A stretch of 64,000 nt of DNA from NCBI RefSeq assembly GCF_000526375.1, contig NZ_JAFY01000005.1:372001-436000 (forward strand), given 5' to 3'. The notes beneath the pieces were generated by a model. The model saw only the letters and a program-made list of their open reading frames with translations, was not told the origin of the DNA and did no database searches. Source of the DNA: Aminiphilus circumscriptus DSM 16581. GTDB lineage: Bacteria > Synergistota > Synergistia > Synergistales > Aminiphilaceae. Positions 7,035 through 55,374 of the stretch are shown here, piece after piece; positions within the stretch are counted from its first letter, which is position 1, and each line of letters begins with the position of its first letter. Made by a program: the position numbers and the translations under genes.

Positions 7035-8924
7035 TCAACTGCCGACGAGATCGGGAAACAGGGACAGCCTGCGCAGCGTCTCCGATTCGGGGACCCCTGT
7101 CTCCGCGTTCCACCCCCGAGCCGCATAGTACTCCCGGAGCATTTCCTCGTACTCCGACACAGCGCAGCGCGGATCGTCCGCATAGCGCCCGAATTCGGGA
7201 ATTGCCCGAACCCGAGGATGGAGTGCATCGTCCCCGGCGGTAAACCCCTCCCGCCGGTTGAAGAGCCGCTGGAGGGTGAAAACCCGTTCTCCCGTCTCGA
7301 GCAGCTCCTCTCCGGAGACATTCCACCCCGTCGCGGCGGCGAGCATGGCCGCATAATCGTCCAGGGTCACTCCGGCGTACATGTAGAACTTGCAGGTGCA
7401 GAGAACCTCCGGGAGCATTCCCGCGTCCTGGAGAAGCCGTGCCGCCATGCCTTTCCCCCGCTCCTCCCAGGGGGAGATTTCCTCCGGATCGGGAAGGCCG
7501 AAGCGTCGCAGTCCGAAATCGAGCTTGTCCCCATCCCAGGCCTTCGCCTCCACGGGATGAATGTGGCACATTCCCCTCGGATTGGTTCCGTAGGTGAGGG
7601 CAAGAACCTTTCCGCCCCTCGGATCATGGGCGGGCCCTTCGAGCCCCTTTCCCGTCACGGCCCAGGTGAGGACCTCGGGCCGACCGAGCCGTTCCGCCGC
7701 GGCACGCACTCCGTCGGCAACCAGATCCCCCACACCTTCACGAAAGACGATCTTCCGCACCAGCGGCGCCAGAGCAGCACCGTTTCCCCAGGAAAGACCA
7801 AGGGATTGAGCATCCTCCGGCAATGGAACGCCCCGTTCGGCACATTCCATCAGAAAGGCCGCCGCCCCTCCGGCGGAGATGGTGTCCACCCCAAGTTCGT
7901 TGCAGAGCCACGAGGCATGCACCGCCGCATCCACGTTCTCGTTGGTCACGAAGGCGGTGAAGGCCGCCACGGATTCATACTCTCCACCATCGTGCTCGGG
8001 CGTGGCGAACGGACCCGATGCGACCGCGACACGCCGTCCGCACTGGAGCGTGCACCCGCGGTAGCACCCCTTGGAGGCCACAAGATTCTCCTCCATGAAA
8101 TGCCGGAAGATCGCCTCCCCCTTTCCCCAGGAATTGCTCCGCCAGTTCTTCGTGGGCAGATCCCCCGAGGCATCGCTCCAGGCATAACCGCCCATGGTCC
8201 CGGCCCTGCGGAATTCCTTCGCCATGGGGTGTTGCAACACCTTCTCGTGCACCCGCCGGGTGGTCTCGCGAAAGGCTTCTGGGTCGGCGAGCGACACGGT
8301 ACCCGTACCCCGAACGGCCAGGGCGAGGAGTTTCTTGGACCCCATGACGGCCCCAACACCGATTCGCCCCGCCGCCCGGTGACGGTGCATCACCGAGGCG
8401 AAACGGACCAGATTCTCTCCTGCGGGACCGATGGAGAGGACGAGCAGGGAGGGATCTCCCACCATCTCCGCCACAAGACGCTCTTTTTCCAGGGTCGTCT
8501 TTCCCAGAAGCGCCGCGCCGGAAAGAAAGGAGAGCTTTCCATCGTCCAGAAAAAGCACACACGGTTCCGCCGCGGAACCGGTCACCACGAGCACGTCCAC
8601 ACCGGCTTTCCGAAGGGTGATGCCCGCGTCGCACCCCATGCGGCTCTCCCCCCAGGCACCTGTCAGTGGAGAAGTGCAGCAGATTTCCAGGCTTCCGCCT
8701 CCGGGAACGCGGAAGTCCGTCAGCGGCCCCGTGGCGAAGAGGAGCAGACTCTCCGGGTGCAGGGGGTCGAGGCGGGCAGGCTGATGCTCCAGAAGGCACC
8801 GGACCGCATAGCCCGCACCACCGATGCACCCGCGCAGGTCCTTCCGAAGGGAATGTTTCGTCACCGTCTTCCGCGCCAGATCCACCCAGAGTTCGCATCC
8901 CGCGTATCCCGAACTCTTTTCCAC
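7035..8924 (-). CDS. tungsten-type aldehyde:ferredoxin oxidoreductase
   Basis: Oxidises aldehydes to carboxylic acids with ferredoxin as acceptor, using a bis-pterin tungsten (or molybdenum) cofactor and one [4Fe-4S] cluster. The 629 residues carry the N-terminal AOR fold (GGAGYAVR, FATGPLTD, GESRMG), the cluster-type cysteines CYRGCTLQC (287, 291, 295) and a distal CTC (509-511) that supplies the fourth ligand. Last gene of a six-gene operon: it starts 11 bp after the substrate-binding protein gene ends, with GGGGGCGGG before its GTG. Next to an aminotransferase and a TPP decarboxylase, its likely substrate is the aldehyde they make. No partner 4Fe-4S protein or pterin-synthesis gene is nearby. 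Confidence 0.9.
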   Translation of the reverse strand: MEKSSGYAGCELWVDLARKTVTKHSLRKDLRGCIGGAGYAVRCLLEHQPARLDPLHPESLLLFATGPLTDFRVPGGGSLEICCTSPLTGAWGESRMGCDAGITLRKAGVDVLVVTGSAAEPCVLFLDDGKLSFLSGAALLGKTTLEKERLVAEMVGDPSLLVLSIGPAGENLVRFASVMHRHRAAGRIGVGAVMGSKKLLALAVRGTGTVSLADPEAFRETTRRVHEKVLQHPMAKEFRRAGTMGGYAWSDASGDLPTKNWRSNSWGKGEAIFRHFMEENLVASKGCYRGCTLQCGRRVAVASGPFATPEHDGGEYESVAAFTAFVTNENVDAAVHASWLCNELGVDTISAGGAAAFLMECAERGVPLPEDAQSLGLSWGNGAALAPLVRKIVFREGVGDLVADGVRAAAERLGRPEVLTWAVTGKGLEGPAHDPRGGKVLALTYGTNPRGMCHIHPVEAKAWDGDKLDFGLRRFGLPDPEEISPWEERGKGMAARLLQDAGMLPEVLCTCKFYMYAGVTLDDYAAMLAAATGWNVSGEELLETGERVFTLQRLFNRREGFTAGDDALHPRVRAIPEFGRYADDPRCAVSEYEEMLREYYAARGWNAETGVPESETLRRLSLFPDLVGS

Positions 8925-8935
8925 GTTCCCGCCCC

Positions 8936-9865
8936 CTAGAGAAGTCCTTCCTTTTCGAGGAAGTTCCGAGCCACTTTTTCCGCCTCCATGCCCTCGTCGA
9001 ACTGATAGTTCAGCTCCGCCATGGTAGCCTCGTCGATACGGCCGCTCACCTTTTCAATAATATCAAGCAACTGCGGATATTTCGCGAAGGTCTTCCGGTT
9101 GATCACGAAACAGGCACTGTAATCCGGGAAAAACCCCTTGTCATCCTCAAGGATCACCAGGTCGAGTTTTCGGATGCGCGAATCCGTGGAATAGGCGGCG
9201 ATGACATCAACCTCCCCGGCCTCGATGGCCTTGTACATGAGGGCATACTCCATGGGAAGCACTTCCTTGAAGGAAATTCCGTAGTGTTTGCTCCACCCGG
9301 GATAGGCATCATGACGCGTGTCGAAGTTCGAATCCCCGCCGAGACGCCACTGTTTCGCGAAGGCCGCGAGGTCCGACGCCTTCTTCAGATTGTACTTCTC
9401 CGCGGTCTCTCGGCGCACCGCCATGGCGTAGGTGTTGTTGAATCCGAGAGGTTTCGCCCAGCTCATGTCGTACCGTTTCTCGAATTCGCTCTTCACGAGA
9501 GCGTAGGCCTCGTCGCGCCCCAGGGGCGGCCCCTCGTAACGCAACAGACCGATCAGATGGGACCCGGTCCAGCAGGGATAGATGTCGATCTGGTTGCTCC
9601 GCATGGCCTCGTGGAGCACCGCCACACCCGCGAAGTCGGAATTGAAGTTCACCTTGAGCCCCGTGTGAGCCTCCACCAGAAGTTTCGCCATGTTGGCGAG
9701 GATGTTCGATTCGTTCCAAGGCTGTCCACCGATACTGATGGTTCCCTTGTAGTCCTTGGGTGTCTCGGCAAATGCCGGTACCGCCAGACTGCCGAGCAAG
9801 ACCCCAACAAGGAAAATTCCCATCACGCCGAAGCGCCACCACATCCGTCGGTTCTCACATCTCAT
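8936..9865 (-). CDS. OpuC/ProX-type ABC transporter substrate-binding protein
   Basis: Extracytoplasmic binding protein of the quaternary-amine uptake class. A signal peptide is clear (basic start, then a hydrophobic run ending at VPAFAE). The body has the OpuAC pattern: GGQPWNESNILANM near the mature N terminus, IDIYPCWTGSH and PLGFNNTYAMAVR in the middle, and IAAYSTDSRI near the C-terminal lobe hinge. ATG 9865 with GGAGAGGAG upstream is preferred over an open upstream extension; it overlaps the permease stop by 11 bases. Family ligands are betaines, choline, carnitine and, in some branches, amino-acid derivatives; the neighbouring catabolic genes suggest a nutrient rather than an osmolyte. 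Confidence 0.88.
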   Translation of the reverse strand: MRCENRRMWWRFGVMGIFLVGVLLGSLAVPAFAETPKDYKGTISIGGQPWNESNILANMAKLLVEAHTGLKVNFNSDFAGVAVLHEAMRSNQIDIYPCWTGSHLIGLLRYEGPPLGRDEAYALVKSEFEKRYDMSWAKPLGFNNTYAMAVRRETAEKYNLKKASDLAAFAKQWRLGGDSNFDTRHDAYPGWSKHYGISFKEVLPMEYALMYKAIEAGEVDVIAAYSTDSRIRKLDLVILEDDKGFFPDYSACFVINRKTFAKYPQLLDIIEKVSGRIDEATMAELNYQFDEGMEAEKVARNFLEKEGLL

Positions 9866-10601
9866 GCCGCACCATCTCCTCTCCTGGAACATCTTTTTCC
9901 TCACGGACGCTCTCCTCCGCCGCATACTTGCGCGCCAGCCGGAGCGCCCTCCTTCGAGGCTCGAAATGATTCTGGAGCATTTTCAGGCCCTGATCCGCCA
10001 GAAGGGCCAACACCGTCGCGGGCAGTGCCCCGGCGAGCACCACTTCCTGCCGCAAGGCACCGAGTCCCGCGAAAATCAACTTGCCGAGCCCCCCTCCACC
10101 GATGGCCGAAGCGAGGGTTGCCGTGCCGATGACCCATACCGTGGCAACCCGAATGCCCGCGATGATCACCGACCGGGCCAAAGGAAGCTGGACCTTGAGG
10201 AGAATCTGCGTCTCCGTCATGCCCATGCCCCGGGCCGCCTGAATCATGACGGGAGAGACGTTGCGCAGCCCCGTGTAGGTGTTCTGCAACACCGGAAGCA
10301 CCGCGTAGAGCACGAGAGCGCAGATGGCGTTGTCGTTCCCGATACCGAAGACGAAAATAAGAAACCCCAAGAGGGCCAGGCTTGGAATGGTCTGAAAGAC
10401 GTTCGCCACGCCGATGACCACCGAGGCCAGTTTCTCCCGCTTGGAGAGGTAAATCCCAAGGGGAATGCAGATGAGGAGGGTGATGCAAACGGCGATGCCG
10501 GAGATCATCACGTGCTGCCCCGTAAGGGCCAGGATGCGGGGCCAGTTCTCCGAGACATAGGTGACGAAGAGTTCCCAAAACGTCCGTTCAGGAGGAAACA
10601 T
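9855..10601 (-). CDS. OpuCB-type ABC transporter permease
   Basis: Membrane subunit of the OpuC-like importer. The 248 residues hold about six hydrophobic segments and the permease signature region around RGMGMTETQILLKVQLPLARSV, which contacts the ATPase (EAA-like loop). ATG 10601 has GAAAGGAGG upstream, and its first base overlaps the TGA of the ATPase gene (TGATG), so the two are translationally coupled. The N-terminal tail (TFWELFVTYVSENWPRIL) resembles OpuCB and OpuCD. Only one permease gene is present, so the channel is presumably a homodimer. Confidence 0.88.
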   Translation of the reverse strand: MFPPERTFWELFVTYVSENWPRILALTGQHVMISGIAVCITLLICIPLGIYLSKREKLASVVIGVANVFQTIPSLALLGFLIFVFGIGNDNAICALVLYAVLPVLQNTYTGLRNVSPVMIQAARGMGMTETQILLKVQLPLARSVIIAGIRVATVWVIGTATLASAIGGGGLGKLIFAGLGALRQEVVLAGALPATVLALLADQGLKMLQNHFEPRRRALRLARKYAAEESVREEKDVPGEEMVRHEM

Positions 10602-11734
10602 CAGGCACCCGCCTCCTTTCTGCTTCGAGAGAGCCTTCCGATGGCAAGCCTGGCCAGGCTTCCACTGGTGACGACACCCAGAAACACGTTCTCCCGGTTT
10701 ACCACGGGGATGGAGAGATCCATGTCGGCGAGCATCTCCGCCGCATCCCGTATGACCGCCTCCTCGAAAATGAGCTTTCGGTTTCGCCGCACCGCCTCCC
10801 GAAGGGTGCCCCCGTTCCGGAGCGTCCGTTTGAGCACCGGCAGATAGAGCATGCCCACCCAATTTCCCCTGGCATCCACCACCTGGGCGGTTTCCAGGCC
10901 ATCATCCTCCATGCGTTCCAAAACATCCCTGGGATCCTCTCCGGGAGCAACCCGAAGGAACGGATCATGAAGCAACGTCTCCAGCGAGGATTCGGGAGAG
11001 ATGGAGGCGAGACGATCCTCGCCGATGAAAGAGCGCACGAAGTCATTGGCGGGCGCATTCTGGATTTCCTCGGGAGATCCCATCTGCTCGATCTTTCCCT
11101 GGCGCATGAGCACCACACGGTCCGCCAGCTTCAGCGCCTCGTCCATGTCGTGGGTGACGAAGACGATGGTCTTCCGCAAGGATTTGTTCAGCTCCTTGAG
11201 TTCACTCTGGAGCACGTCCCGGGTAATCGGATCGAGAGCGCCGAAGGGTTCGTCCATGAGCACCACCGGAGGATCCGCCGCGAGGGCCCGCAGGACACCG
11301 ATGCGCTGCTTCTGCCCGCCGCTGAGCTGGTCGGGAAGACGGTGCCGAAACTTCGCCGGGTCCAGCCCCGCCAGGGCCAGCAGCTCGTCGACCCTGGCGT
11401 CGATGCGTCCGCTGTGCCATCCGAGCAGCCTGGGCACAATGCCGATGTTCTCCGCCACGGACATGTGGGGCCACAGGGCAATCTCCTGGATCACATAGCC
11501 GATGCCCCGACGAAGCTGCACCGGGTCCACCGAACGGATGTCCCGACCGTTGACGCGAATTCGTCCGGAAGTGCTTTCCTCGAGACGGTTTATCATCTTC
11601 AGACTGGTGGTCTTACCACAGCCGCTCGGGCCGATGAGCACCACGAATTCTCCCTCTCCGACCTCCAGATCCAGTTCCTTCACCGCCTCGGTGCCATCGG
11701 CGAAAACCTTGGAGACCGCCTCAAAAGTTACCAT
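10601..11734 (-). CDS. OpuCA/ProV-type ABC transporter ATPase with CBS pair
   Basis: Energises the importer. Walker A GPSGCGKTT (35-43), Q loop VIQEIALWPH, signature LSGGQKQR (137-144), Walker B VVLMDEPFGALD and the H loop THDMDEA are intact. After the nucleotide-binding domain come about 120 residues forming two CBS modules, as in OpuCA/OpuAA, where they sense ionic strength or cyclic-di-AMP. The ATG at 11734 follows GGGGGCAAGG; a GTG two codons upstream is an alternative. It starts 22 bp after the aminotransferase gene. CBS regulation is unexpected for a purely catabolic uptake system, so an osmotic role remains possible. Confidence 0.9.
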   Translation of the reverse strand: MVTFEAVSKVFADGTEAVKELDLEVGEGEFVVLIGPSGCGKTTSLKMINRLEESTSGRIRVNGRDIRSVDPVQLRRGIGYVIQEIALWPHMSVAENIGIVPRLLGWHSGRIDARVDELLALAGLDPAKFRHRLPDQLSGGQKQRIGVLRALAADPPVVLMDEPFGALDPITRDVLQSELKELNKSLRKTIVFVTHDMDEALKLADRVVLMRQGKIEQMGSPEEIQNAPANDFVRSFIGEDRLASISPESSLETLLHDPFLRVAPGEDPRDVLERMEDDGLETAQVVDARGNWVGMLYLPVLKRTLRNGGTLREAVRRNRKLIFEEAVIRDAAEMLADMDLSIPVVNRENVFLGVVTSGSLARLAIGRLSRSRKEAGA

Positions 11735-11756
11735 CCGCACCTTGCCCCCTTCTTCA

Positions 11757-12914
11757 TCAAAGCACCACGTTCCATTCCATGTTTTTCGTTGTACCGGAGC
11801 GTTCAGCAAGCGCGGGCACCGCTTCGTCGAAGGCCCGGAGAAAACGGTCCATCTCCTTCGTGGTCCCCACGGTGACGCGCAGCGCACCCGGAAATCCCCA
11901 TCCCGAACAGGGACGGACGATAACGCCTCGCAGAAGCAACTCCTTGGCGAGGGTTTCTCCGTCGTAGGGTGTGTCCGCAAAGACGAAATTCGCCCGGGAA
12001 GGCACCACGAAACACCCTCGATCCTCCAGTGCGCGCTCCAGCCGTTCCCGGTCGGCGAAAATACGCTGCCGCGCCGCCTCGAGCTCCGCTTTTCCGTGGC
12101 GCAGCAGCGCCACGGCTCCAGCCAGAGCAATTCTGTTGGCGTTAAAGGGCTCGCTCACCGTGTCGATGGCAGTGACAACGTCGGCGGAGGCCAGGGCATA
12201 CCCGAGCCGGGCTCCGGCAAGCCCGTAGTACTTGGAGAAGGTCCGTACGACGATAAGGTTCCGTTTCTCCCGAAGAAGCCGCACTCTGTCGGGAAGTTCT
12301 GCCGGCGGCGCGAACTCCGCATAGGCCTCGTCGAGGATCACCCAGGCCGTTTCCGGAAGACGATCCAGAAGACATTCAAAGGCCTTTCTGTCAAAGATGC
12401 TTCCGAGAGGGTTGTTCGGATTGGAAATCCACACCAGCTTCGTCTTCGCCGTCACGGCCTCGGCCATGGCATCGGGATCGACCCGCCAGTTCCGGACCGG
12501 CACTTCCACCACCCGGGCCCCCATAAGACGGGAAATTTCCTTGTACAGGCCGTAGGTGACCCCCGATCGGATCACCTCGTCTCCCTCGTCGAGAAAGCAC
12601 TTGCCGAGATTCTGGAGCATCCCCTCCGCGCCGTGGCTGACGGCCACCTGCGAGACATCCAACCCGTACAGCTCCGCGAGCAGCTCCTTGATCTCCGTGA
12701 ATGTCGCGTCCGGATAGCGGTGCACCCGCCGCAACTCCTCCGTCATGGCCCGCAGCGCCGTGGGAAACGGGGCGTAGGGGTTCTCGTTCGACCCCAGCTT
12801 GATCACATCGGTAAGCCCCAGTTCCCGTTCCACCTCGGCGATGGTCTTTCCCGGGACATATCCTTCCATGGCGATCACAGTCTTGCGCAATCCCTTCACG
12901 TCATGCAGCGCCAT
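11757..12914 (-). CDS. HisC-like class I/II aminotransferase
   Basis: PLP enzyme of the histidinol-phosphate aminotransferase group, 385 residues. The fold markers are all there: GSNENPYAPFP near the N terminus, the substrate and phosphate region HGAEGML, SNPNNPLGS, ILDEAYAEF (PLP aspartate) and FSKYYGLAGARLGY with the Schiff-base lysine at 228. No histidine-biosynthesis gene is adjacent; instead it lies 3 bp after a TPP-dependent decarboxylase gene and 22 bp before ABC transporter genes. This argues for transamination of an imported amino acid rather than histidine synthesis. HisC homologues are known to act on histidine, aromatic and other amino acids, so the call is by fold and context only. 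Confidence 0.85.
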   Translation of the reverse strand: MALHDVKGLRKTVIAMEGYVPGKTIAEVERELGLTDVIKLGSNENPYAPFPTALRAMTEELRRVHRYPDATFTEIKELLAELYGLDVSQVAVSHGAEGMLQNLGKCFLDEGDEVIRSGVTYGLYKEISRLMGARVVEVPVRNWRVDPDAMAEAVTAKTKLVWISNPNNPLGSIFDRKAFECLLDRLPETAWVILDEAYAEFAPPAELPDRVRLLREKRNLIVVRTFSKYYGLAGARLGYALASADVVTAIDTVSEPFNANRIALAGAVALLRHGKAELEAARQRIFADRERLERALEDRGCFVVPSRANFVFADTPYDGETLAKELLLRGVIVRPCSGWGFPGALRVTVGTTKEMDRFLRAFDEAVPALAERSGTTKNMEWNVVL

Positions 12915-12917
12915 ATC

Positions 12918-14585
12918 CTACACCTCCCTGCCGGCATCCACGCGGATAAGCGTGGGCATCTCCCGTCCCAGCGCAGCCGCGACCGCTTCAGCCAACTCCG
13001 CCCCGGACGAGACGGCAACCCCGGAAATGCCGTAGGATGCGGCCAAAAGCCTCAGATCCGGCCCGAGCAGATCCACCCCCAGATATTCCCCGGGATGCCG
13101 GGCCTCCTGGTTGCGTCGGATCTCTCCGTAACCGCCGTTGTCCCAGATCACCACGGGAAGGGAAAGTTTCTCCTGACAGGCCACGGCCAGCTCGGGCAGG
13201 GTAAACTGGAACCCTCCGTCTCCAGAGAAGACACAGACCGGGCGATCCAAAGCGGCGAGCTTCGCTCCCACCGCTGCCGGCAGAGCATAACCGAGCGTTC
13301 CGAACCCTACGGGGTGCAGGAAGGACCGGGGAGAGAAAACAGGAAATTCGCTGAGCGCCACATAGGCGGGACCCGTCATGTCCATGACGAGGAGCCCCTC
13401 GTCGGGGAGTCCCCGGCGAAGCCCCCGGAGCATGTCCAGCATGAAGGGAAGTGCCGTGCCCATGCGCGTTACCGCGGCGAGTTCGTTTTGGGAATTCTGG
13501 AGCAAGGTTTTGACCTCCTCCGACCGGGGAGGCCGAGAGACATGCAGGTCCGCGAGAAGGCGGCGCAGTACATCCCGGGCGTTCCCCTCAAGGGAAACGT
13601 GGGCGGGAAGGTTGCGAGAGAGCGCCGAAGGATCGGTATCGATGCGAATGAGATGCCCCTTCGGACGAAGCGGAGCCTCCCAGAGATCCGCGGGTGCCAG
13701 TTCCGTTCCGACAGCGAGAAGAACATCCGCCTCCTCGACGGCGTTGCGGACCGACGGAAAATGCAGACGTGTGCCAAGGGAAAGCGGGTGCTTTTCGGGG
13801 AGAAGACCCTTTCCGGCTGTTGTGGTGACCACGGGGGCGCCAAGACGTTCCGAGAGTGTTTCGATCTCCGGAGCTGCCGTCACGGAGCCGCCTCCGGCGA
13901 GGAGCATCGGGGTGGAAGCATTGCGAAGCAGGGAAATCACTGTGGCAAGATCGGTTTCGGAAGGGGGTGGGCCCAGTGGAACAAAGAGGTCCCGCACGCC
14001 CGGCGGCGCGGTTTTCGGATCGCGCCCCGAGGCGGTGAAACCGGGCCACGCAAAGGACGAAACATCGTCGATCTCCGTACCCAGCACATCCAAAGGGATC
14101 TCCAGATGGACCGGTCCGGGGCGCCCGGAAAGGGCGGTCCGCATCGCCTGCGCCACGGCGCAGGGAATCTCTTCCGCAGCATGGATGCGGCGACTTTCTT
14201 TGGCCACCGAGGCAACCATGATCGTGCTGTTCCGCAGCTCGTGGAGAAAACCGCTTTTTCCGGCGAGAAAGGCCCGTGGCACCTGACTGGAGATCACAAG
14301 CAGGGGAACGGCGTCGGCAAACGCCTGCCCCATGGGGGTGAGAATGTTCGTGAGCCCCGGTCCTGAAATGACGAGAGCGACACCAACCCTTCCAGTGGAA
14401 CGGGCATAGCCGTCGGCCATGAACCCGGCCCCCTGTTCGTGCCGGGCCGTGACGACCCGAAGAGCGCTTTGCAACAGCCCGTCGTAGATATGAAGCGTGT
14501 GCAGACCGGGAATGCCGAACACCGTATCAACACCGCACGTTTCGAGGCTTTGCACCACGAGATGTCCGGCGGATTGCTTTCTCAT
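12918..14585 (-). CDS. TPP-dependent 2-oxo acid decarboxylase (AruI/IlvB-like)
   Basis: Thiamine-diphosphate enzyme of 555 residues with the three standard domains. The N-terminal domain has GIPGLHTLHIYDGL and the catalytic glutamate in ARHEQGAG (Glu50); the cofactor domain has FSGDGGFQFTLPEL and WDNGGYGEI. The GIPGxHTLxxYxGL segment is more like 5-guanidino-2-oxopentanoate decarboxylase (AruI) than acetolactate synthase, and there is no IlvN subunit gene nearby. ATG 14585 has GGAGGAAGGAG upstream; the frame stays open to 14789 without a better start. It is the first gene of the operon and would convert the 2-oxo acid made by the adjacent aminotransferase to an aldehyde for the AOR. Confidence 0.82.
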   Translation of the reverse strand: MRKQSAGHLVVQSLETCGVDTVFGIPGLHTLHIYDGLLQSALRVVTARHEQGAGFMADGYARSTGRVGVALVISGPGLTNILTPMGQAFADAVPLLVISSQVPRAFLAGKSGFLHELRNSTIMVASVAKESRRIHAAEEIPCAVAQAMRTALSGRPGPVHLEIPLDVLGTEIDDVSSFAWPGFTASGRDPKTAPPGVRDLFVPLGPPPSETDLATVISLLRNASTPMLLAGGGSVTAAPEIETLSERLGAPVVTTTAGKGLLPEKHPLSLGTRLHFPSVRNAVEEADVLLAVGTELAPADLWEAPLRPKGHLIRIDTDPSALSRNLPAHVSLEGNARDVLRRLLADLHVSRPPRSEEVKTLLQNSQNELAAVTRMGTALPFMLDMLRGLRRGLPDEGLLVMDMTGPAYVALSEFPVFSPRSFLHPVGFGTLGYALPAAVGAKLAALDRPVCVFSGDGGFQFTLPELAVACQEKLSLPVVIWDNGGYGEIRRNQEARHPGEYLGVDLLGPDLRLLAASYGISGVAVSSGAELAEAVAAALGREMPTLIRVDAGREV

Positions 14586-14917
14586 GCCACCAACTCCTTC
14601 CTCCGTTCCACCTTCTTTTCGTTTTTTCCGTGTTCTTCGATCCATCGAGGCGGCAGCGCACAAAAAACCTTCTTTTCCCCCTCTGTCGGGAAAAGTCTCT
14701 GCGGCACCTATTTCTGCTTCTTCGTCTCCCACGATACTTCTGCGACGTGTCCGCCGGTTTCCTCGTTCGGAACGGGAACACCTCGGCACTTGAATGGAAC
14801 TGAATGAAAAGGGGAAACCGCGTACGGAGACCTCGCAAATTTACCATGCGACCACAGCACAATAAAATCACTTTTAGATAAGAGCACTGCAAAAAGAACT
14901 ATCTTCATTCGCAACGC
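14586..14917 (-). other. long 5' leader of the six-gene operon
   Basis: About 330 nt separate the predicted transcript start from the decarboxylase ATG. No convincing ORF with a ribosome site is seen. GGTTTCC and GGAAACC segments about 60 nt apart could pair, so a structured leader is possible. No known riboswitch consensus was recognised. Confidence 0.4.
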
Positions 14918-14923
14918 AAAGAT

Positions 14924-14952
14924 AGCATACCCAAATATGGATCAGATGTCAA
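14924..14952 (-). promoter_or_regulatory. sigma70-type promoter of the six-gene operon
   Basis: On the minus strand TTGACA (14947-14952), 17-bp spacer, TATGCT (14924-14929), inside an AT-rich stretch unlike the flanking coding DNA. It points toward the decarboxylase gene. Confidence 0.65.
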
Positions 14953-15166: not shown

Positions 15167-17335
15167 TCAGACTTCCCTCTCGTCCCTGAAACGCTCGGCA
15201 ACCTCCTGAAATTCCTCCTCAAGGGCCACAAAGGCACGCACCACTGCCGGATCGAATTTCATTCCGCTCTGAGCACGAATGAAAGCCGATGCATCCGCGT
15301 GCGTCCAAGGCACCTTGTAGGGACGACGGCTCCGCAACGCATCATACACGTCCGCCAGGGCCACAATGCGCCCGTTCAACGGGATGACGGAGCCGGCAAG
15401 TCCTCGGGGATATCCGGTGCCGTCGTAGTTCTCGTGGTGGGAGAGCGCGATCTCCGCCGCCGTTTCGAGGCTCGAATGGCCGTGGAGAATGTTGTACCCT
15501 ATGGTCGTATGGGTTTTCATGATCTCGAACTCTTCGGGCGAGAGCTTCCGTGGCGCAAGGAGAATGCCGTCGGGAATGCCAACTTTGCCGATGTCGTGAA
15601 AAGGAGCGAACGTCTCCAGGTCCAGAAGTTCCTTCCCCATGAGTCCCAGATAGGCACCCACGATGCGGCAATAGGCGCTGACCCGCAGAAGGTGCGCCCC
15701 GGTCTCCATATCCCGAGCCTCGGCCGTTTCCGCAAGAGCCCTGTACAGGTCGAGCCGCGTGTTCCGCTCCTCCTCCACTCTCCGGGTAATGTCCATGGGT
15801 GTTCCGAGAAAGGCCGTCAATTCACCACGCTCATCCCGCACCGCGCTGATGTAAAGACGTACCCACAAAAGTGTTCCGTCTTTGCGGCGATTGACGATTT
15901 CTCCTTCCCACCGTCCCTTTTTCGGGTCGATGATACTCTCCCACATTTCGCCAAAAAGACGATCGTACTGCTCTTCCGTGTATCCCAGATCCTTATAGAC
16001 CTTTCGCCCAGGGTTGAGAATGCCCGGCGTTTTCCCCAGAGCTTCCTCCTGAGAATAGCCGTAGAGTTCCTCGAAGGCCCGGTTCACGTAGAGAATTCTG
16101 CCCGTCGTATCCGTGACGGTCATGCCGTGAATGGCACTCTGAAAAGCCCGGTGGAGGAGTTCCTTTTCCTGGCTGATCTTCCGGTATTCCGTGACATCCG
16201 TCACGTTCGCCATGCATGTCCCCTGCCGGGGGAAGGGGGAGAGCTTCACGTCATAGAAACGCCCCTTCCAGGCGATGTCGAAGCTCAGGACATCACCCGG
16301 AGCAAGGCTCCTTTCCAGAAGCTCCCTGTAGTCCGGCGGCAACAGATTCTCCAGACCCCGGAGATCCTCGAAACCGTGTTCTCCGAGCCATTTCCACGCG
16401 CTGGGATTGGCAAAGGAAATGCTCCCAGCGGCATCGATCTGAAAGACCACGTTAGGGTTCGCGAGTGGAAAGAGGGCCATGCGCTGCAATTCCTCGGCAA
16501 GACGATACTCCTCGGAGACGTTCCGCCCAAGGAAGGAGAAGCCTTCCAGCTTTCCCACCTCGGAAAAATGGGGGATCACGCTCCAATGCACGTGAAACTC
16601 CTTTCCCGCGGTGGTAATGTGGTGAAGTCGGAATGAGTCCGAAGCGGAACGTTCCCCGATGATGGTCCGAAGGCGTTCACGCAGGAAAACTTTTCTGGAA
16701 TCGTGAACGAAGTCCTCGAAAGTCCTCGCGCTTCCGTCGCTCACGACAATGCCAAAAAGGTGTTCCGCTGCGGGGTTGAGGAACGTGAACCGAAGCGCCG
16801 CATCGATCTCCACCAGAAGGTGCTCCGTTCTCTCCACGAGAGCGCGAAAACGGCTCTCGCTTTCTCTGGCCATGCGTTCCATACATTGCCATTCCGTCAT
16901 GTCCCTGAACTGTTCCATCACGGCGACGACCCGCCCATCCTCATCCAGAAGGGGCGAGGCGAAAATGAGACAGGGGATGTTTCCCCCCGTCCTGGTGGGA
17001 ACATCCATGCAAAATTCCAACGTCTCCTCCGCAGTGAAAGAGTGTTCCAAGGGACAATCGGGGCCGTTGCAGAAGGGGGCACGAAGGATCTCAAAGCAGG
17101 GTTTTCCCTCTACTTCATCCACAGCATAGCCGAAAATGCGGGAGAACATGCGGTTGGCCCGGAGAATGCGGCGGGTTCTTCCCAGAATCAGAATGCCCTC
17201 GGCGGAGGCATGAAAAAGCTGCTCCAGATTCCATCCGTTCTCTTCGGAGAGAATCCCTGCTTCTTCGGAAACACCACCTCGCGAGGAGCAGGCTGAACAG
17301 AATCGTTGCTCTTCTTCGTTTCCCGGGTCCAACAT
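15167..17335 (-). CDS. multi-PAS HD-GYP phosphodiesterase
   Basis: Likely cyclic-di-GMP hydrolase of 722 residues. Four PAS-like modules are read in order (about 30-155, 160-285, 290-395, 400-530); the first and last have classic features such as GILILGRTRRILRANRMF and GRILYVNRAFEELYGYS, and the last ends in a PAC segment (DGTLLWVRLYISAVRDERGE). The HD-GYP domain (about 545-720) has HLLRVS, FHDIGKVGIPD, and the HHENYDGTGYP GYP loop. No membrane segment is visible, so it is probably soluble. ATG 17335 follows GGCGGAGGAG. It is a single-gene unit with its own terminator. Confidence 0.9.
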   Translation of the reverse strand: MLDPGNEEEQRFCSACSSRGGVSEEAGILSEENGWNLEQLFHASAEGILILGRTRRILRANRMFSRIFGYAVDEVEGKPCFEILRAPFCNGPDCPLEHSFTAEETLEFCMDVPTRTGGNIPCLIFASPLLDEDGRVVAVMEQFRDMTEWQCMERMARESESRFRALVERTEHLLVEIDAALRFTFLNPAAEHLFGIVVSDGSARTFEDFVHDSRKVFLRERLRTIIGERSASDSFRLHHITTAGKEFHVHWSVIPHFSEVGKLEGFSFLGRNVSEEYRLAEELQRMALFPLANPNVVFQIDAAGSISFANPSAWKWLGEHGFEDLRGLENLLPPDYRELLERSLAPGDVLSFDIAWKGRFYDVKLSPFPRQGTCMANVTDVTEYRKISQEKELLHRAFQSAIHGMTVTDTTGRILYVNRAFEELYGYSQEEALGKTPGILNPGRKVYKDLGYTEEQYDRLFGEMWESIIDPKKGRWEGEIVNRRKDGTLLWVRLYISAVRDERGELTAFLGTPMDITRRVEEERNTRLDLYRALAETAEARDMETGAHLLRVSAYCRIVGAYLGLMGKELLDLETFAPFHDIGKVGIPDGILLAPRKLSPEEFEIMKTHTTIGYNILHGHSSLETAAEIALSHHENYDGTGYPRGLAGSVIPLNGRIVALADVYDALRSRRPYKVPWTHADASAFIRAQSGMKFDPAVVRAFVALEEEFQEVAERFRDEREV

Positions 17336-17965: not shown

Positions 17966-18253
17966 TCAAGACAAAAGACTCCCCTGAAAGAAACCTATGG
18001 AAAATCCAGAGAAACCCTGAATAAAGACCTTTCGCTTTCCCTTGACTCAGGTCGCATCAGGCTCTGCGAGGCGCCCTGCGGGGCTGACGCAGCCTTATTC
18101 AGAGATTCCTCAAGACAAAAGACTCCCCTGAAAGAAACCTATGGAAAATCCAGAGAAGCCCTGAATAAAGACCTTTCGCTTTCCCTTGACTCAGGTCGCA
18201 TCAGGCTCTGCGAGGCGCCCTGCGGGGCTGACGCAGCCTTATTCAGAGATTCC
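17966..18253. repeat. tandem duplication of a 144-bp unit containing a MITE-like inverted-repeat element
   Basis: Unit 1 is 17966-18109 and unit 2 is 18110-18253; they differ at one base seen by eye (GAAACCC versus GAAGCCC). In each unit the last 100 bp are bounded by near-inverted ends: GAAACCCTGAATAAAG on the left and CCTTATTCAGAGATTCC on the right (CTGAATAA/TTATTCAG perfect). Those ends match the two ends of the IS5-family remnant at 37783-38994 (GGAAACCCTGAACAAG and the complement of GGAATCTCTGAAAAAC). The interior is GC-rich with further small palindromes and codes for nothing convincing. The unit therefore looks like a non-autonomous relative of that IS plus 44 bp of adjoining DNA, duplicated in tandem. 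Confidence 0.8.
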
Positions 18254-18350: not shown

Positions 18351-19316
18351 CTACAAACTCCGTCCCCGGACGACTACGTTGCGCGGGTGTCCCTCCATCC
18401 ATGCCGTGATATTCTCGAAAACGATCCGCGCTCGCTTCGCAAGCGCTTCCTCTGTGGCGAACCCTCCATGAGGCGCCAACAAGGTGTTGGGTGCGTCGAG
18501 AAGGGGATGATCGGCGGGAATGGGCGGCTCCATTTCGAACACGTCGATGCCCGCGCCCTTCAAATGCCCCTCTTTCAATGCGACGGCAAGGGCGTGGGAA
18601 TCCACCACTCCACCCCGGGAAACATTCAACAGCAGGGAGCCAGGTTTCATGCGGGCGATCCGCTCCCGGTCAAACAGGAGTCTCGTCTCCTCCGTAAGCG
18701 GCATATGGAGGGAGACGATGTCGCAGGTGGCGAGAAGCTCGTCCAGATCCACATAGGTGACCCCGAGCGCCAGGGCTTCCTTCCGGACGCTGCGGCTCCA
18801 GGCGACCACCTCACATCCGAAGGCAAGGAGCAATTCCGCCACCCGAAGACCGATCGCGCCGGTTCCGACAATCCCCACTTTTTTCCCCTGGAGTTCCTTT
18901 CCCAGATAGGTGCGGACACCACCCTGACGAACGACCCTGTCCCCTTCGGCAACACAGCGGAGAACACCGAGCATGAGTGCGATGGTCATTTCCGCCGTGG
19001 CCTGCGTGGCATACCCCGCGGCATTACATACCCAGATGCCCCGCTCACAACAGGCGGCGCAATCCACGTGGTCCGTCCCGGTAAAGGCCACGGAAAGCAT
19101 CCGCAACTCCGGCAGAGCACGAATGAGATCTCCTCCGAAGGGGACGTTGGCGAGAACCACCGCCGACGCTCCTTCCGCGCGCCTGCGGAGGATCTCCATG
19201 TCAGTGCTCCGCTCGCTCTCGAAACAGACCTCGTGTCCCGCCGTGCGAAAAGGAGCCGCAAGTCCGTCGAGAAGCTCCTGGGGAACACCCAGCGGTTCCA
19301 CAACAGCGATACGCAT
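18351..19316 (-). CDS. D-2-hydroxyacid dehydrogenase (NAD-dependent)
   Basis: Reversible reduction of a 2-oxo acid to a D-2-hydroxy acid. The NAD-binding GIVGTGAIGLRVAELL, the catalytic arginine in NVSRGGVVD, the glutamate in GIDVFEMEP and the histidine in APHGGFAT are intact. Length is about 321 residues. ATG 19316 is preferred because GGAGG sits nine bases upstream; ATG 19325 abuts that GGAGG but would overlap the kinase stop as ATGA. It is the last gene after ptb and buk, which suggests disposal of reducing equivalents from branched 2-oxo acids, or another link to the same fermentation. Exact substrate unknown. Confidence 0.88.
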   Translation of the reverse strand: MRIAVVEPLGVPQELLDGLAAPFRTAGHEVCFESERSTDMEILRRRAEGASAVVLANVPFGGDLIRALPELRMLSVAFTGTDHVDCAACCERGIWVCNAAGYATQATAEMTIALMLGVLRCVAEGDRVVRQGGVRTYLGKELQGKKVGIVGTGAIGLRVAELLLAFGCEVVAWSRSVRKEALALGVTYVDLDELLATCDIVSLHMPLTEETRLLFDRERIARMKPGSLLLNVSRGGVVDSHALAVALKEGHLKGAGIDVFEMEPPIPADHPLLDAPNTLLAPHGGFATEEALAKRARIVFENITAWMEGHPRNVVVRGRSL

Positions 19317-19321
19317 GGCTC

Positions 19322-20416
19322 TCATCCTCCGTAGGTTTTCGCGGTCTCCAACCCCTGGAGCACGCGCAAGGCGCCTTCCGCAAGGGCGCGCAGTTCATCC
19401 TCGCCCTCGTAGACCTTCACGGGGGCGATCCACTGTACCCGCCTGCGAATGCGCTCCACGAAATCCTCGGCGTAGGCAAGTCCCCCCGTGAGGAGAATCG
19501 CGTCCACCACTCCTCGAAGCGTCACCGCCCTGGACCCGATCTCCCTGGCCACCTGGTAGGTCATGGCATCCAAGATCAGCGCCGCCGAAGCGTCGCCTTC
19601 GTCAACGCGACGATAGGCCTCGCGAAGGTCATTAGTACCCAGATGGGCAACCATGCCACCGCCGCCCACAAGTTTCCGCAGCATGGTCTCCAGGTCCACG
19701 GCCCCACTGAAACAGAACTTGACCAGTTCTCCCGCGGGGAGAGACCCCGCCCGCTCCGGCGAGAAGGGGCCCTCTCCGTCAAGAGCGTTGTTGACATCCA
19801 CCACCCTTCCGTGAAGGTGGGCACCCACGGAGATGCCGCCCCCCATGTGGGCCACCACGAGGTTGAGTTCCTCGTAGCGTTTCCCTGTCTCCGCGGCGAA
19901 ACGACGAGCCACGGCCTTCTGGTTCAGCGCGTGAAAGATGGAGCGTCTTTCGATGCCGGGGAAACCCGAGAGTCGTGCCTGGGGAAGTAGCTCATCCACC
20001 ACGACCGGGTCTACAATGAAGGCGGGCTTACCCCCGGCCTCCTGCGCCAGGGAAAGCGCCAGAGGCGCCCCGAGATTGCTCGCGTGTGTTCCGTAACGGC
20101 ACGAAATGAGATCCTCCAGCATGGGAGCGTTCACCACATAGGTGCCTCCCTCGATGGGACGAAGCAGTCCTCCCCGTCCCACCACGGCATCCACGTCGGC
20201 AAGGCTGATTTTCTCCGCGTCGAGAACCTTGAGGATTTCCGTCCTCCGAAACGTCTCCTGGTCCGCCATGGAGACGAATTCCCGCAACAGCTCCACGTTA
20301 TACCGTTGGGTGTGGGAGAAAAGTTCCTGGCCGTCCCGGAACAGGGCAAACTTGGTACTGGTGGAGCCGGGGTTGATCACGAAAATCGTGAAGGAACCGT
20401 CCTTCGACACAGTCAT
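19322..20416 (-). CDS. buk: butyrate kinase (or branched-chain fatty acid kinase)
   Basis: Makes ATP from butyryl- or branched acyl-phosphate. ASKHA-fold kinase of 364 residues with the phosphate loop INPGSTSTK near the N terminus, VGRGGLLRPIEGGTY, HMGGGISVGAHLHG and the C-terminal ILLTGGLAY. ATG 20416 is chosen because CGGAGGGAGT lies eight bases upstream; a GTG two codons earlier is too close to it. It follows ptb after a hairpin-bearing gap and is coupled to the hydroxyacid dehydrogenase. A second kinase gene lies 2 kb upstream in the same direction, and the two differ markedly in sequence. Confidence 0.9.
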   Translation of the reverse strand: MTVSKDGSFTIFVINPGSTSTKFALFRDGQELFSHTQRYNVELLREFVSMADQETFRRTEILKVLDAEKISLADVDAVVGRGGLLRPIEGGTYVVNAPMLEDLISCRYGTHASNLGAPLALSLAQEAGGKPAFIVDPVVVDELLPQARLSGFPGIERRSIFHALNQKAVARRFAAETGKRYEELNLVVAHMGGGISVGAHLHGRVVDVNNALDGEGPFSPERAGSLPAGELVKFCFSGAVDLETMLRKLVGGGGMVAHLGTNDLREAYRRVDEGDASAALILDAMTYQVAREIGSRAVTLRGVVDAILLTGGLAYAEDFVERIRRRVQWIAPVKVYEGEDELRALAEGALRVLQGLETAKTYGG

Positions 20417-20446
20417 GCGCACTCCCTCCGAGGTAAAACACTACGA

Positions 20447-20477
20447 ACGAAGGGGCCGCACACAGCGGCCCCTTCGT
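20447..20477 (-). terminator. 13-bp hairpin between ptb and buk
   Basis: ACGAAGGGGCCGC (20447-20459) and GCGGCCCCTTCGT (20465-20477), perfect stem, 5-nt loop. On the minus strand only a broken T-rich stretch follows (TCGTAGTGTTTTA), so partial termination or mRNA processing between ptb and buk is more likely than a full stop. Confidence 0.6.
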
Positions 20478-20493
20478 TGTCCATCTTCGGGCG

Positions 20494-21414
20494 TCAGCGC
20501 CCCTGGTGGGCAGCGAGAGCCACAGCGGAGGCAATGGAGAGAAGCTTCGTCTCCGCCGTATCCGTGCGGCTCGTGAGAACCACCGGCGCCTTGGCACCCA
20601 ACACGAGACCGGCAGTCTTGTTTCTCGCGAAGTAGACGATGGCCTTGGCCATCATGTTTCCCGCCTCGATGTCCGGCACAAGAAGAATGTCCGCGTTCCC
20701 CGCCACTTCGGACTCGATTCCCTTGTGCTTCGCCGCTTCCACGCTGATGGCGTTGTCCAGGGCGAAAGGACCGTCCACGACGCATCCCTTGATCTGCCCG
20801 CGGCGACTCATCTGAGCAAGGGCTGCCGCGTCGAGCGTGCAGGGCATGTCCGGATTCACCACCTCCACGGCACCCAAAACGGCGACTTTGGGATTCGCGA
20901 TGCCGAAGGCATGGGCGAGTTCCACCGTATTGTTCAGGATGTTCACCTTCGCCTGAAGGTCCGGATACATGTTGAACGCGGGATCGCAGATGAAGAAGAC
21001 CCGGTCGTATCCTTCCACCTGATGGATGTAGACATGGGAAATGAGCGCTCCCGAGCGGAGTCCCTTCTCCTTGTTGAGAACGCCCCGAAGGAAGTTGGCG
21101 GTCTTGATCATCCCCTTCATGAGAATGTCCGCGCTCCCCGACGACACGAGTTCCACGGCCTTGAGGGCCACGGCGTTCTCGTTGCCCCGTTCGTCCACGA
21201 CCTCATAGTTCGCGAGATCGATGCCCAGCTTCGCCGCCACATCGGCGATCTTCACCGCGTTGCCCACGAGGATCGCGGTGGCGATGCCGTTCTTGCGGGC
21301 ATCCTCGACGGCTTCCATGACCTCCGCGTCCTCCGCCAGGGCGACGCTGATCTTGCGGGGCCCGATCTCCCGGGCGTACTCCATCAGTTCCGTCAACGAC
21401 CGAATCTGCTTCAT
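20494..21414 (-). CDS. ptb: phosphate butyryltransferase, copy 1
   Basis: Converts butyryl- or branched acyl-CoA plus phosphate to acyl-phosphate for the kinase. The 306 residues show the Pta/Ptb fold: GNAVKIADVAAKLG, ADILMKGMIKTANFLRGVLN, SHVYIHQVEGYD, VVNPDMPCTLDAAAL, GCVVDGPFALDNA and the C-terminal ADILLVPDIEAGNM. ATG 21414 follows AGGGGAGGTT. A good promoter sits 65 bp upstream, so it heads a ptb-buk-dehydrogenase unit. A diverged copy lies immediately upstream. Confidence 0.92.
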   Translation of the reverse strand: MKQIRSLTELMEYAREIGPRKISVALAEDAEVMEAVEDARKNGIATAILVGNAVKIADVAAKLGIDLANYEVVDERGNENAVALKAVELVSSGSADILMKGMIKTANFLRGVLNKEKGLRSGALISHVYIHQVEGYDRVFFICDPAFNMYPDLQAKVNILNNTVELAHAFGIANPKVAVLGAVEVVNPDMPCTLDAAALAQMSRRGQIKGCVVDGPFALDNAISVEAAKHKGIESEVAGNADILLVPDIEAGNMMAKAIVYFARNKTAGLVLGAKAPVVLTSRTDTAETKLLSIASAVALAAHQGR

Positions 21415-21477
21415 GCTGGTCAGAACCTCCCCTTGTAATTTGGAAAGTATGGATGAGCGTTTCCATCTCTTGGATAC

Positions 21478-21506
21478 ACTATACCGCTCTCTCGAACATA
21501 CGCCAA
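21478..21506 (-). promoter_or_regulatory. sigma70-type promoter of ptb-buk-dehydrogenase
   Basis: Minus strand TTGGCG (21501-21506), 17-bp spacer, TATAGT (21478-21483), between the two ptb genes. Confidence 0.6.
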
Positions 21507-21515
21507 GACGATCTC

Positions 21516-21543
21516 CCCTCTCCGGTTCATCTTCCGGAGAGGG
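21516..21543 (-). terminator. hairpin directly after the second ptb gene
   Basis: CCCTCTCCGG/CCGGAGAGGG 10-bp stem with an 8-nt loop, starting on the base after the ptb stop (minus strand). No T tract follows. Confidence 0.45.
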
Positions 21544-22470
21544 TTATTTTCTGGAAAGAACGGCACCGAGAGCGATGGAAAGGAGCTTCGTCCGGGCCGA
21601 ATCGATTCGGCTGGTGAGCACCACCGGAACTTTCGCCCCGAGAATCACACCCGCTCCCTCGCCTCCGGTGAGGTAGAGCATGGTCTTTCCCAAGAGATTC
21701 CCCGCCTCGATGTCGGGAACGAGAAGGATGTCCGCCTTTCCGGCGACGTCCGAATCGATGCCCTTGTGTCGAGCGGCTTCCTCGCTCACCGCGTTGTCCA
21801 GCGCCAGGGGGCCGTCAACCAGACACCCCTTGATCTGTCCTCGCCGTTGCATCTGGGTGAGCGCCGCCGCATCGAGCGTGCAGGGCATGTCCGGATTCAC
21901 CACTTCCACGGCGGAGAGCGCCGCCACCCGAGGACAGACACATCCGAGCGCGTGGTAACAGTTCACCGCATTTTCAAGAATTCCAACCTTGGCCTGGAGA
22001 TCCGGATAGGTGTTGATCCCTCCGTCGGTCAGTCCGTAGAAACGCCCCATCTTCGGAATGTAGAAGAGGAACAGATGACTCAGCAGCGCTCCGGAGCGTA
22101 ACCCCCACTCCTTGTTGAGCACCGCTTTGAGAAGCGTCGCCGTCTTGACCATGCCCTTCATGAGAGTGTCCGCCCGTCCTTCGGCAACCATCCGAACCGC
22201 CCGCTCCGCCGCATCGGCTTCACCGGGCTCGTGCACGATTTCGAACGCTCCGGCATCGACGCCCACTGTTTCCGCGACTCTCTCGATCTTCGCCCGGTCA
22301 CCCACGAGAACGCCCTCGACAATACCCTGTCGCCGTGCCTCATTCAGTGCGACGAGCACATCCTCATCCTGGGCGCAGACGGCGGCGATGCGCATACGTT
22401 TGCCATCGCGACAACGGTCGAGCAGGAAATCAAGATTCCGACAAGAAGAGAACTCTCCATCATGCGTCAT
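21544..22470 (-). CDS. ptb: phosphate butyryltransferase, copy 2
   Basis: Same role as the neighbouring copy, and the core motifs are kept (ADTLMKGMVKTATLLKAVLN, VVNPDMPCTLDAAAL, GCLVDGPLALDNA, ADILLVPDIEAGNL). It differs clearly elsewhere, for example SHLFLFYIPKMGRFYG in place of SHVYIHQVEGYD at the acyl-binding face, which may mean a different acyl preference. ATG 22470 follows GGGAGGCGGAAG; 308 residues. The kinase gene ends 95 bp upstream. The pair buk-ptb here and ptb-buk next door are in opposite gene order but on the same strand. Confidence 0.9.
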   Translation of the reverse strand: MTHDGEFSSCRNLDFLLDRCRDGKRMRIAAVCAQDEDVLVALNEARRQGIVEGVLVGDRAKIERVAETVGVDAGAFEIVHEPGEADAAERAVRMVAEGRADTLMKGMVKTATLLKAVLNKEWGLRSGALLSHLFLFYIPKMGRFYGLTDGGINTYPDLQAKVGILENAVNCYHALGCVCPRVAALSAVEVVNPDMPCTLDAAALTQMQRRGQIKGCLVDGPLALDNAVSEEAARHKGIDSDVAGKADILLVPDIEAGNLLGKTMLYLTGGEGAGVILGAKVPVVLTSRIDSARTKLLSIALGAVLSRK

Positions 22471-22565
22471 GCTTCTTCCGCCTCCCGCAACACATGTCTG
22501 TTTTCCGCACGTTCCCACACACCACGGTGCGTCAGGGTATGCGGATCTCTCCGAGAGCCCCTCCG

Positions 22566-23651
22566 TCAGGAAGCGGCGACCATTTCGCCGTAACGCAGAC
22601 ACGGCTCCTCGCCGCGCAGAACGCGCAATGCCCCCTCCACAAGGGCACGCATCTCGTCCTCGCCGGGGTAGACGAGGACGGGAGCAATCCACTGCACCTG
22701 TTCCGTGACGAGACGGACGAACTCGCCGTCGTGGGCCACACCTCCCGTGAGCAGAATCGCCTCGACTTCGCCCTCCAGGGGGACCGCATAGGCGCCGATA
22801 TCCTTCGCCACTTGGTAGGCCATGGTTTCGTAGACGAGACGGGCCTTCCCGTCTCCCTCGGCGATCCGGCGCCTCACTTCTCTGAGATCGCTCGTTCCCA
22901 GATATCCCACCACACCGCCCGCTCCGGCGATCTTCTTGCGAAGATCCTGCATGGTATGGTTACCGCTGAAACAAAGGCGGACGAGATCCCCCGCCGGAAC
23001 GCCTCCGGAGCGCTCCGGCGAAAAAGGGCCGAATTCGTTGGCATTGTTGAGGTCCACCATCCGTCCCGCCTTGTGGGTGCAGATGGAGATGCCCCCGCCG
23101 AGATGGGCCACGACGACGTTCATTTTCCGCCAGTCCCGACCGAGATCTTTCGCGGCGCGGCGTACCGTGGCCTTGATGTTCAACGCGTGTCCCAGCGAGT
23201 GCTTCGGCAGCTCCGGCAGTCCCGTGATCCGTGCCACGGCATCAAGCTCGTCCACGGCGACCGGATCGACAATGTAGGCGGGGATCTTGCGCGGAAAGGC
23301 GATGGCCGCCGCGAGGATTCCCCCCAGGTTCGAAGCGTGCTCCCAGGGCTTTCCCCGGCGCAGATGGCTCAGAAGCAGTTCGTCCACCGCATAGGTTCCC
23401 CCCGGGATGGGGTCCACGATGCCTCCCCGTCCCACCACGGCCTGAAGCGCATCCAAATCCCCCCCCTCCTCTACCACCGCCTGCTCGATCACTCGGAGAC
23501 GGAAGGGAAACTGTTCAACAACACACGGAAAGGCAGCGATCTCTTCCACGCAGTGGGACAGGGTCACTCTCCACGCCTCTTCATCGCCCCGATACCAGGC
23601 GATCTTGGTGCTTGTCGATCCCGGATTGATGGCAAGTACCTGCACTTCCAC
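22566..23651 (-). CDS. buk: butyrate kinase family, copy 2
   Basis: ASKHA-fold acyl kinase of 361 residues; INPGSTSTKIAWY, VGRGGIVDPIPGGTY, HLGGGISICTHKAG and ILLTGGVAHD mark the nucleotide and acyl-phosphate sites. The GTG at 23651 follows GGAGGAGGG; a second GTG two codons later is possible, but no ATG is close. It starts 50 bp downstream of the terminator that follows the branched-chain aminotransferase, so it is probably fed by read-through or by a weak promoter not recognised here. Isobutyrate or isovalerate kinase activity would fit the context. Confidence 0.88.
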   Translation of the reverse strand: MEVQVLAINPGSTSTKIAWYRGDEEAWRVTLSHCVEEIAAFPCVVEQFPFRLRVIEQAVVEEGGDLDALQAVVGRGGIVDPIPGGTYAVDELLLSHLRRGKPWEHASNLGGILAAAIAFPRKIPAYIVDPVAVDELDAVARITGLPELPKHSLGHALNIKATVRRAAKDLGRDWRKMNVVVAHLGGGISICTHKAGRMVDLNNANEFGPFSPERSGGVPAGDLVRLCFSGNHTMQDLRKKIAGAGGVVGYLGTSDLREVRRRIAEGDGKARLVYETMAYQVAKDIGAYAVPLEGEVEAILLTGGVAHDGEFVRLVTEQVQWIAPVLVYPGEDEMRALVEGALRVLRGEEPCLRYGEMVAAS

Positions 23652-55103: not shown

Positions 55104-55179
55104 TGGCTCCTCGGCGAGGACTTGAACCTCGAACCTAGTGGTTAACAGCCACCCGCTCTGCCGATTGAGCTACCGAGGA
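55104..55179 (-). tRNA. tRNA-Asn (anticodon GTT)
   Basis: Full cloverleaf on the minus strand, acceptor TCCTCGG/CCGAGGA, anticodon loop CTGTTAACC, T loop GGTTCAAGTCC, encoded CCA. Confidence 0.97.
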
Positions 55180-55362: not shown

Positions 55363-55374
55363 TCGGGAAGTTCC

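Follow-up and report, generated by a model that had tools for sequence, protein, structure and literature searches.

A conserved importer-linked operon of anaerobic bacteria with a predicted route for oxidising a side-chain quaternary ammonium amino acid, possibly trimethyllysine

Transamination, decarboxylation of an omega-cationic 2-oxo acid by an AruI-family enzyme and oxidation of the resulting aldehyde occur in the arginine transaminase pathway of Pseudomonas and rhizobia (AruH-AruI, a dehydrogenase and a guanidinobutyrase). Here, we describe a six-gene operon with the same predicted steps in a 64,000-nucleotide stretch of the Aminiphilus circumscriptus DSM 16581 genome (Synergistota; contig NZ_JAFY01000005.1, positions 372,001 to 436,000; the whole stretch is hereafter called the window). 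Unlike the arginine pathway, this module has a HisC-type transaminase, a quaternary-amine importer within the operon and, for the last step, an aldehyde:ferredoxin oxidoreductase (AOR) or an enzyme resembling betaine-aldehyde dehydrogenase (BADH). Moreover, it has no guanidinobutyrase, its decarboxylase belongs to a separate clade and its hosts are anaerobes.

Three other known systems are comparable. The sole bacterial route described from N6,N6,N6-trimethyllysine to delta-valerobetaine uses the lysine 2-monooxygenase DavB and the amidase DavA (PMC8976029, PMC11773067). The substrate and product that we propose for the module are identical, but the monooxygenase DavB yields an amide that DavA hydrolyses, whereas the module route has no oxygenase. 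Neither davB nor davA is in the operon, and no genome-wide search of the module genomes was made for them. The conversion of choline to glycine betaine (OpuB/OpuC with GbsB/GbsA) shares with the module an importer of quaternary ammonium compounds and, in Clostridia, a BADH-like betaine-forming enzyme; it needs no transaminase or decarboxylase, whereas the module requires the onium group to be on an amino acid side chain. In the oxidative amino acid fermentation of Pyrococcus (transaminase, 2-oxoacid:ferredoxin oxidoreductases and AOR), AOR likewise oxidises an amino-acid-derived aldehyde with ferredoxin, but the 2-oxo acid goes to CoA-dependent ferredoxin oxidoreductases rather than to a dedicated decarboxylase linked to an importer. 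Taken singly, the parts of the module all come from known families; the novelty lies in how the genes are combined, in their linkage with a quaternary-amine importer and in the interchange of AOR and an aldehyde dehydrogenase (ALDH). On a transaminase/decarboxylase route for trimethyllysine we found nothing relevant in the literature covered, which left out most subscription journals.

All six genes are intact and lie on the minus strand, at the positions that a first-pass annotation, made from the sequence alone, had given them:

14924..14952, minus strand: sigma-70-like promoter TTGACA-17-TATGCT, 10/12 consensus matches, the top promoter-like site of the region
12918..14585, minus strand: thiamine pyrophosphate (TPP)-dependent 2-oxo acid decarboxylase of the sister clade of AruI, 555 aa (PRK07524)
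11757..12914, minus strand: HisC-family pyridoxal phosphate aminotransferase, 385 aa (TIGR01141)
10601..11734, minus strand: OpuC/ProV-type ATPase with a CBS domain (TIGR01186 at 365 bits, cut-off 326.6; PF00005, PF00571)
9855..10604, minus strand: OpuC-type permease (PF00528; top NCBIfam matches ProW/ChoW)
8936..9844, minus strand: AfProX/OpuCC/EgtU-type substrate-binding protein (SBP), 302 aa (PF04069, OpuAC)
7035..8924, minus strand: AOR, 629 aa (PF02730, PF01314)

From the TPP gene to the AOR gene, the junctions measure 3, 22, -4, 10 and 11 bp, which agrees with the annotated operon with gaps of 22 bp or less and corrects it at the ATPase and permease genes, which overlap by 4 bp. The single promoter claimed before is also supported, as the outer coordinate of the best promoter-like site (14952) is exactly the upper boundary of the annotated unit, and Pfam and NCBIfam hidden Markov model (HMM) matches bear out the family assignments of all six products. 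Purine runs resembling ribosome-binding sites precede most starts. The TPP gene start was set at the ATG at 14585 and not at the start of the longer open reading frame; for the SBP gene, an alternative upstream ATG at 9865 is possible. An Rfam scan of window positions 1-30000 found no RNA regulatory element.

The operon is a genuine unit and not a chance run of genes, because linkage of these clades recurs in many genomes from two phyla. Among 21 relatives searched, an AOR orthologue group stood out at 51-58% identity (96% within the genus), with other full-length AORs at about 40% or less, and the neighbourhoods of the orthologues carry the same genes as the window operon. Among 151 Synergistota genomes, the decarboxylase clade (45-55% identity) is set off from acetolactate synthases (37% or less). 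The earlier proposal to look for the gene set in other anaerobes proved fruitful: the contiguous TPP-HisC-ATPase-permease-SBP core is present in at least 13 of the 151 genomes, the window's included, which represent five families, and in two Clostridia. AOR adjoins the core in 10 loci (six with AOR downstream of the SBP gene, four with AOR upstream of the TPP gene) and is located elsewhere in the genome in G012 and G064. In one family (L061:14704-16578, L058:5596-7464, L190:429-2315), the AOR gene upstream of the TPP gene comes after a universal stress protein gene and before a gene for a small protein of ~100 aa, which recurs beside the module. No further gene is conserved around the Synergistota modules taken together.

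Co-inheritance of the clades is equally clear. The TPP, AOR and SBP clades occur in 15, 13 and 15 of the 151 genomes, respectively, counts that leave out three Acetomicrobium genomes whose orphan decarboxylase is more distant (43-45%). TPP and SBP clades occur together in 14 genomes (Fisher p 1.1e-17) and TPP and AOR clades in 12 (Fisher p 3.1e-14); these values ignore phylogeny, but the genomes concerned span five families. The exceptions lacking the TPP clade (G078 and G125) are short contigs that end where the missing gene would lie. Alternatively, an ordinary glycine betaine importer might have come to lie next to unrelated enzymes, as ordinary OpuC importers by chance lie near acetolactate synthases in other Synergistota (L184, L185). 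However, the gene order is kept across many families and two phyla with the co-inheritance given above, the module SBPs carry specific residues (a Trp at a cage position and the motif DENFDTRPDAYPGW), and a search for homologous loci lacking the enzymes was negative, with the decarboxylase clade in 14 of the 15 SBP-clade genomes and a contig end in the other. Accidental linkage is thus largely refuted by conservation and clade co-occurrence, and we reject it as highly improbable. A second apparent association of a TPP enzyme with an OpuC importer, in other Synergistota, was traced to an acetolactate synthase of an ilv operon that lies next to an ordinary importer of osmoprotectants. One sequence (L188) was in the wrong reading frame and was disregarded in one alignment (A4).

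More importantly, two parts of the module are replaced in Clostridia. A 'Clostridiales' metagenome-assembled genome (L067) and a Clostridium (G217, locus L153) carry ATPase, permease, SBP, TPP and HisC genes, followed by an NAD-type ALDH where AOR would be expected. In a third genome (G338, locus L152), the TPP gene and the same ALDH lie beside an OpuA/ProU-type ATP-binding cassette (ABC) importer with an OpuAC-family SBP. The ALDHs of the three Clostridia are 63-69% identical, and BADH is the top NCBIfam match of each. Both the oxidising step and the importer have therefore been swapped for proteins that are unrelated or distantly related but presumably fill the same role. These replacements are the best evidence for aldehyde oxidation and quaternary-amine import, and together with the conserved linkage the two independent exchanges strongly support the import-transaminate-decarboxylate-oxidise route put forward in the first-pass annotation. 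In G008, all that is left of the decayed AOR gene is a 57-aa C-terminal fragment and a small inverted one, and this is the only Synergistota module genome searched that has a close relative (54%) of the Clostridial ALDH, unlinked to the module; as a single case with a chance of about 1 in 15, it is only a hint of the same swap. L067 and L152 also share a FadR-type GntR regulator (56% identical) and have 2-hydroxyacid dehydrogenases nearby that are 41% identical to each other; these may be the module's regulator and a reductive side route of the 2-oxo acid.

The SBP groups with OpuBC/OpuCC, ProX and EgtUC by sequence and predicted fold (model mean predicted local distance difference test score 83.9). 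Fold comparison gave Z scores of 27-31 against ProX, OpuBC and EgtUC-type chains, 16-18 against other binders of quaternary ammonium compounds and below 13 against amino acid SBPs. In EgtUC, the trimethylammonium group is held by F293, N339, Y341, Y419 and Y443 and the carboxylate by K242, T296 and R379 (PMC9732360). We used this numbering, as residue numbers for AfProX were not found in the literature, and mapped it to the SBP by a near-constant offset of 201-202. The five cage residues correspond to W92, N137, Y139, Y218 and Y242, which are invariant in 14 module SBPs, and the carboxylate residues to Q41, T/S95 and R177, the last nearly invariant. The aromatic cage known from EgtU, ProX and OpuCC is thus complete in the SBP, which supports a quaternary-amine ligand and backs the earlier hint drawn from the binding-protein family. 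EgtU itself is also an SBP of subcluster F-III and shares the cage positions and the carboxylate Arg, but differs in having Lys242, Glu375 and Phe293 in place of Gln41, Asn173 and Trp92, and ergothioneine has no amine that can be transaminated. Trp92 and the motif are specific to the module, whereas in ordinary SBP paralogues that position is Tyr and the motif is absent. After YTG, OpuBC/OpuCC chains have Asp in one form, where it is associated with choline specificity, and Thr in another; the module SBP has Thr or Ser.

The decarboxylase had been taken as a hint of arginine or a similar side chain. It scores 535.6 bits against the PRK07524 'AruI' (5-guanidino-2-oxopentanoate decarboxylase) HMM, above the NCBIfam cut-off of 500, and a Clostridial orthologue scores 529.5 bits; a genome scan with the TPP pattern matched mostly proteobacterial AruI. 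In a maximum-likelihood tree, which took in two orphan Acetomicrobium sequences, the module decarboxylases of Synergistota and Clostridia form with these a single clade (100/100 support) that is sister to the proteobacterial AruI-like clade and not nested inside it. 'AruI-like' is correct at the family level, without revealing the substrate. A Sinorhizobium AruI homologue favours 5-amino-2-oxopentanoate (PMC7268258), and the family therefore accepts various omega-cationic 2-oxo acids. The orphan Acetomicrobium clade members (L060, L062, L063) have no importer, transaminase or AOR with them and lie next to isochorismatase-like and TusA-like genes identified by eye.

Arginine or a methylated arginine could accordingly be the imported substrate, converted via 5-guanidino-2-oxopentanoate and 4-guanidinobutanal to 4-guanidinobutanoate, with AOR or ALDH as the oxidising enzyme. 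The subfamily score and the sister position to AruI favour this, and arginase-family enzymes occur in 15/19 module genomes; their presence did not discriminate. The family is absent from the other 4/19, and guanidinobutyrase/arginase genes are not conserved in the modules. However, the decarboxylase clade is separate from AruI, and the OpuC importer with its intact cage and the OpuA-type replacement both belong to quaternary-amine families, and neither has an arginine-type SBP. The transaminase also differs: it scores 326 bits against the TIGR01141 hisC HMM (equivalog cut-off 276.55), whereas AruH and AspC, the arginine transaminases known so far, are relatives of each other. Arginine thus stays a candidate, which we consider unlikely. 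The window's genome encodes a second, more distant HisC homologue (37%) at G000:C7:717762-718835, and the operon copy sits in a catabolic-looking setting.

The AOR has both AFOR N and C domains and was aligned to solved AORs. Its clade has invariant cluster cysteines C287, C291, C295 and C511, plus E315 and H454, which in our alignment match C288, C291, C295, C494, E313 and H448 of Pyrococcus AOR. In this clade the first cluster motif reads CX3CX3C, with one residue more than the classical CX2CX3C seen in the outgroup AOR L052, and the window's genome carries six AOR-family genes. Tungsten content and ferredoxin as electron acceptor would be expected from the family, and so would reduced ferredoxin as the gain, as annotated earlier; the acceptor in Clostridia would be NAD.

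Taken together, we infer the following order of reactions, along with the substrate, product, metal and electron acceptor. The OpuC-type importer would take up an amino acid whose side chain bears a permanent positive charge as a quaternary ammonium group, the HisC-like enzyme would transaminate it to a 2-oxo acid, the AruI-like enzyme would decarboxylate this to an omega-onium aldehyde, and AOR would oxidise the aldehyde to the acid and pass the electrons to ferredoxin. The onium group is placed on the side chain because the transaminase needs a free alpha-amine; for the same reason ergothioneine and glycine betaine, which are alpha-betaines, are unlikely to be the substrates oxidised. The 'betaine of an amino acid' suggested before is likewise unlikely if it means a compound of the ergothioneine kind, since an alpha-N-trimethylated acid cannot be transaminated. 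Trimethyllysine is the commonest amino acid with a side-chain onium group. The 2-oxo acid of free lysine cyclises, but a quaternary nitrogen cannot attack the ketone, and a quaternary or guanidino group prevents cyclisation. In length and charge, the 2-oxo acid of trimethyllysine is close to the AruI substrate. Trimethyllysine would pass through 2-oxo-6-(trimethylammonio)hexanoate and 5-(trimethylammonio)pentanal to 5-(trimethylammonio)pentanoate (delta-valerobetaine), which would then be excreted or retained as a compatible solute. We therefore hypothesize a self-contained catabolic or conversion module whose most likely substrate and product, held with about even confidence, are trimethyllysine and delta-valerobetaine. 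The fuller claim of an oxygen-independent pathway with a dedicated importer, in which a ferredoxin-reducing tungsten enzyme (Synergistota) or a BADH-like enzyme (Clostridia) oxidises the aldehyde, is more tentative.

The reaction order would be identical if S-methylmethionine, a dimethylsulfonium amino acid, were imported, transaminated, decarboxylated to dimethylsulfoniopropionate (DMSP)-aldehyde and oxidised to DMSP. Routes via S-methylmethionine and DMSP-aldehyde are established in DMSP producers, and OpuC-type importers can carry DMSP. The decarboxylase's relatives, however, use longer 2-oxo acids whose distal cation is a nitrogen, and the modules showed no gene specific to DMSP, which makes this substrate quite improbable.

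Several observations weigh against the proposed route from trimethyllysine. The carboxylate Lys of EgtU is replaced by Gln41 in the SBP; the Clostridial ALDHs score 525-545 bits, below the BADH equivalog cut-off of 668.6; G003, which has two SBP copies, lacks the HisC orthologue, and no dedicated one lies near the G338 locus; G100 and G140 have neither an AOR of the clade nor the ALDH; and to our knowledge HisC has no known activity on trimethyllysine. ABC import costs ATP, and in a route without substrate-level phosphorylation the energy gain would be small, so that the balance of energy is doubtful and compatible-solute synthesis becomes a serious alternative purpose. The same chemistry would then supply an intracellular compatible betaine, much as choline imported by OpuB is oxidised to glycine betaine, and not energy or nitrogen. 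The OpuC-type importer, whose ATPase has a CBS domain, fits this purpose, as do the resemblance of the last Clostridial enzyme to BADH, the lack of a conserved downstream catabolic gene and the finding of MttB-type demethylases in just one Synergistota module genome. On the other hand, no osmotic regulator was seen, and the ferredoxin-linked AOR and the Clostridial FadR-type GntR regulator fit catabolism as well; we regard osmoprotectant synthesis as a minority possibility.

Other features of the window and its genome are as follows. Directly upstream of the operon promoter lies a PAS-PAS-PAS-HD (HD_5) signalling protein gene (15167-17335, minus strand), which is not conserved beside the module elsewhere. 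Between it and a 2-hydroxyacid dehydrogenase gene is a 144-bp tandem repeat in two copies, 99% identical (17966-18253). This dehydrogenase, 28-32% identical to those near the Clostridial modules L067 and L152, is followed by three genes, assigned by eye, for an apparent butyrate kinase and two apparent paralogues of phosphate butyryltransferase (18351-22692, minus strand). Positions 55104-55738 hold a six-tRNA cluster (Asn, Cys, Gly, Phe, Asp, Val). Elsewhere, the genome has two MttB-family methyltransferase genes (G000:C2:717767-723295); a follow-up for demethylation (MttB, PF06253) found none in the sampled Synergistota module genomes other than the window's own.

Gut microbes form delta-valerobetaine (TMAVA, 5-AVAB) from trimethyllysine, and this metabolite has been associated with heart failure, fatty liver and obesity (PMC8976029, PMC11773067). 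The monooxygenase route through DavB and DavA is a poor fit to the anaerobic gut. If our proposal is true, the oxygen-free module could explain how gut-type anaerobes form this host-active metabolite, and it would provide a marker gene set for metagenome searches and culture tests. Moreover, an AOR tied by genomic linkage to one amino acid route is useful evidence on the physiological substrate of AOR.

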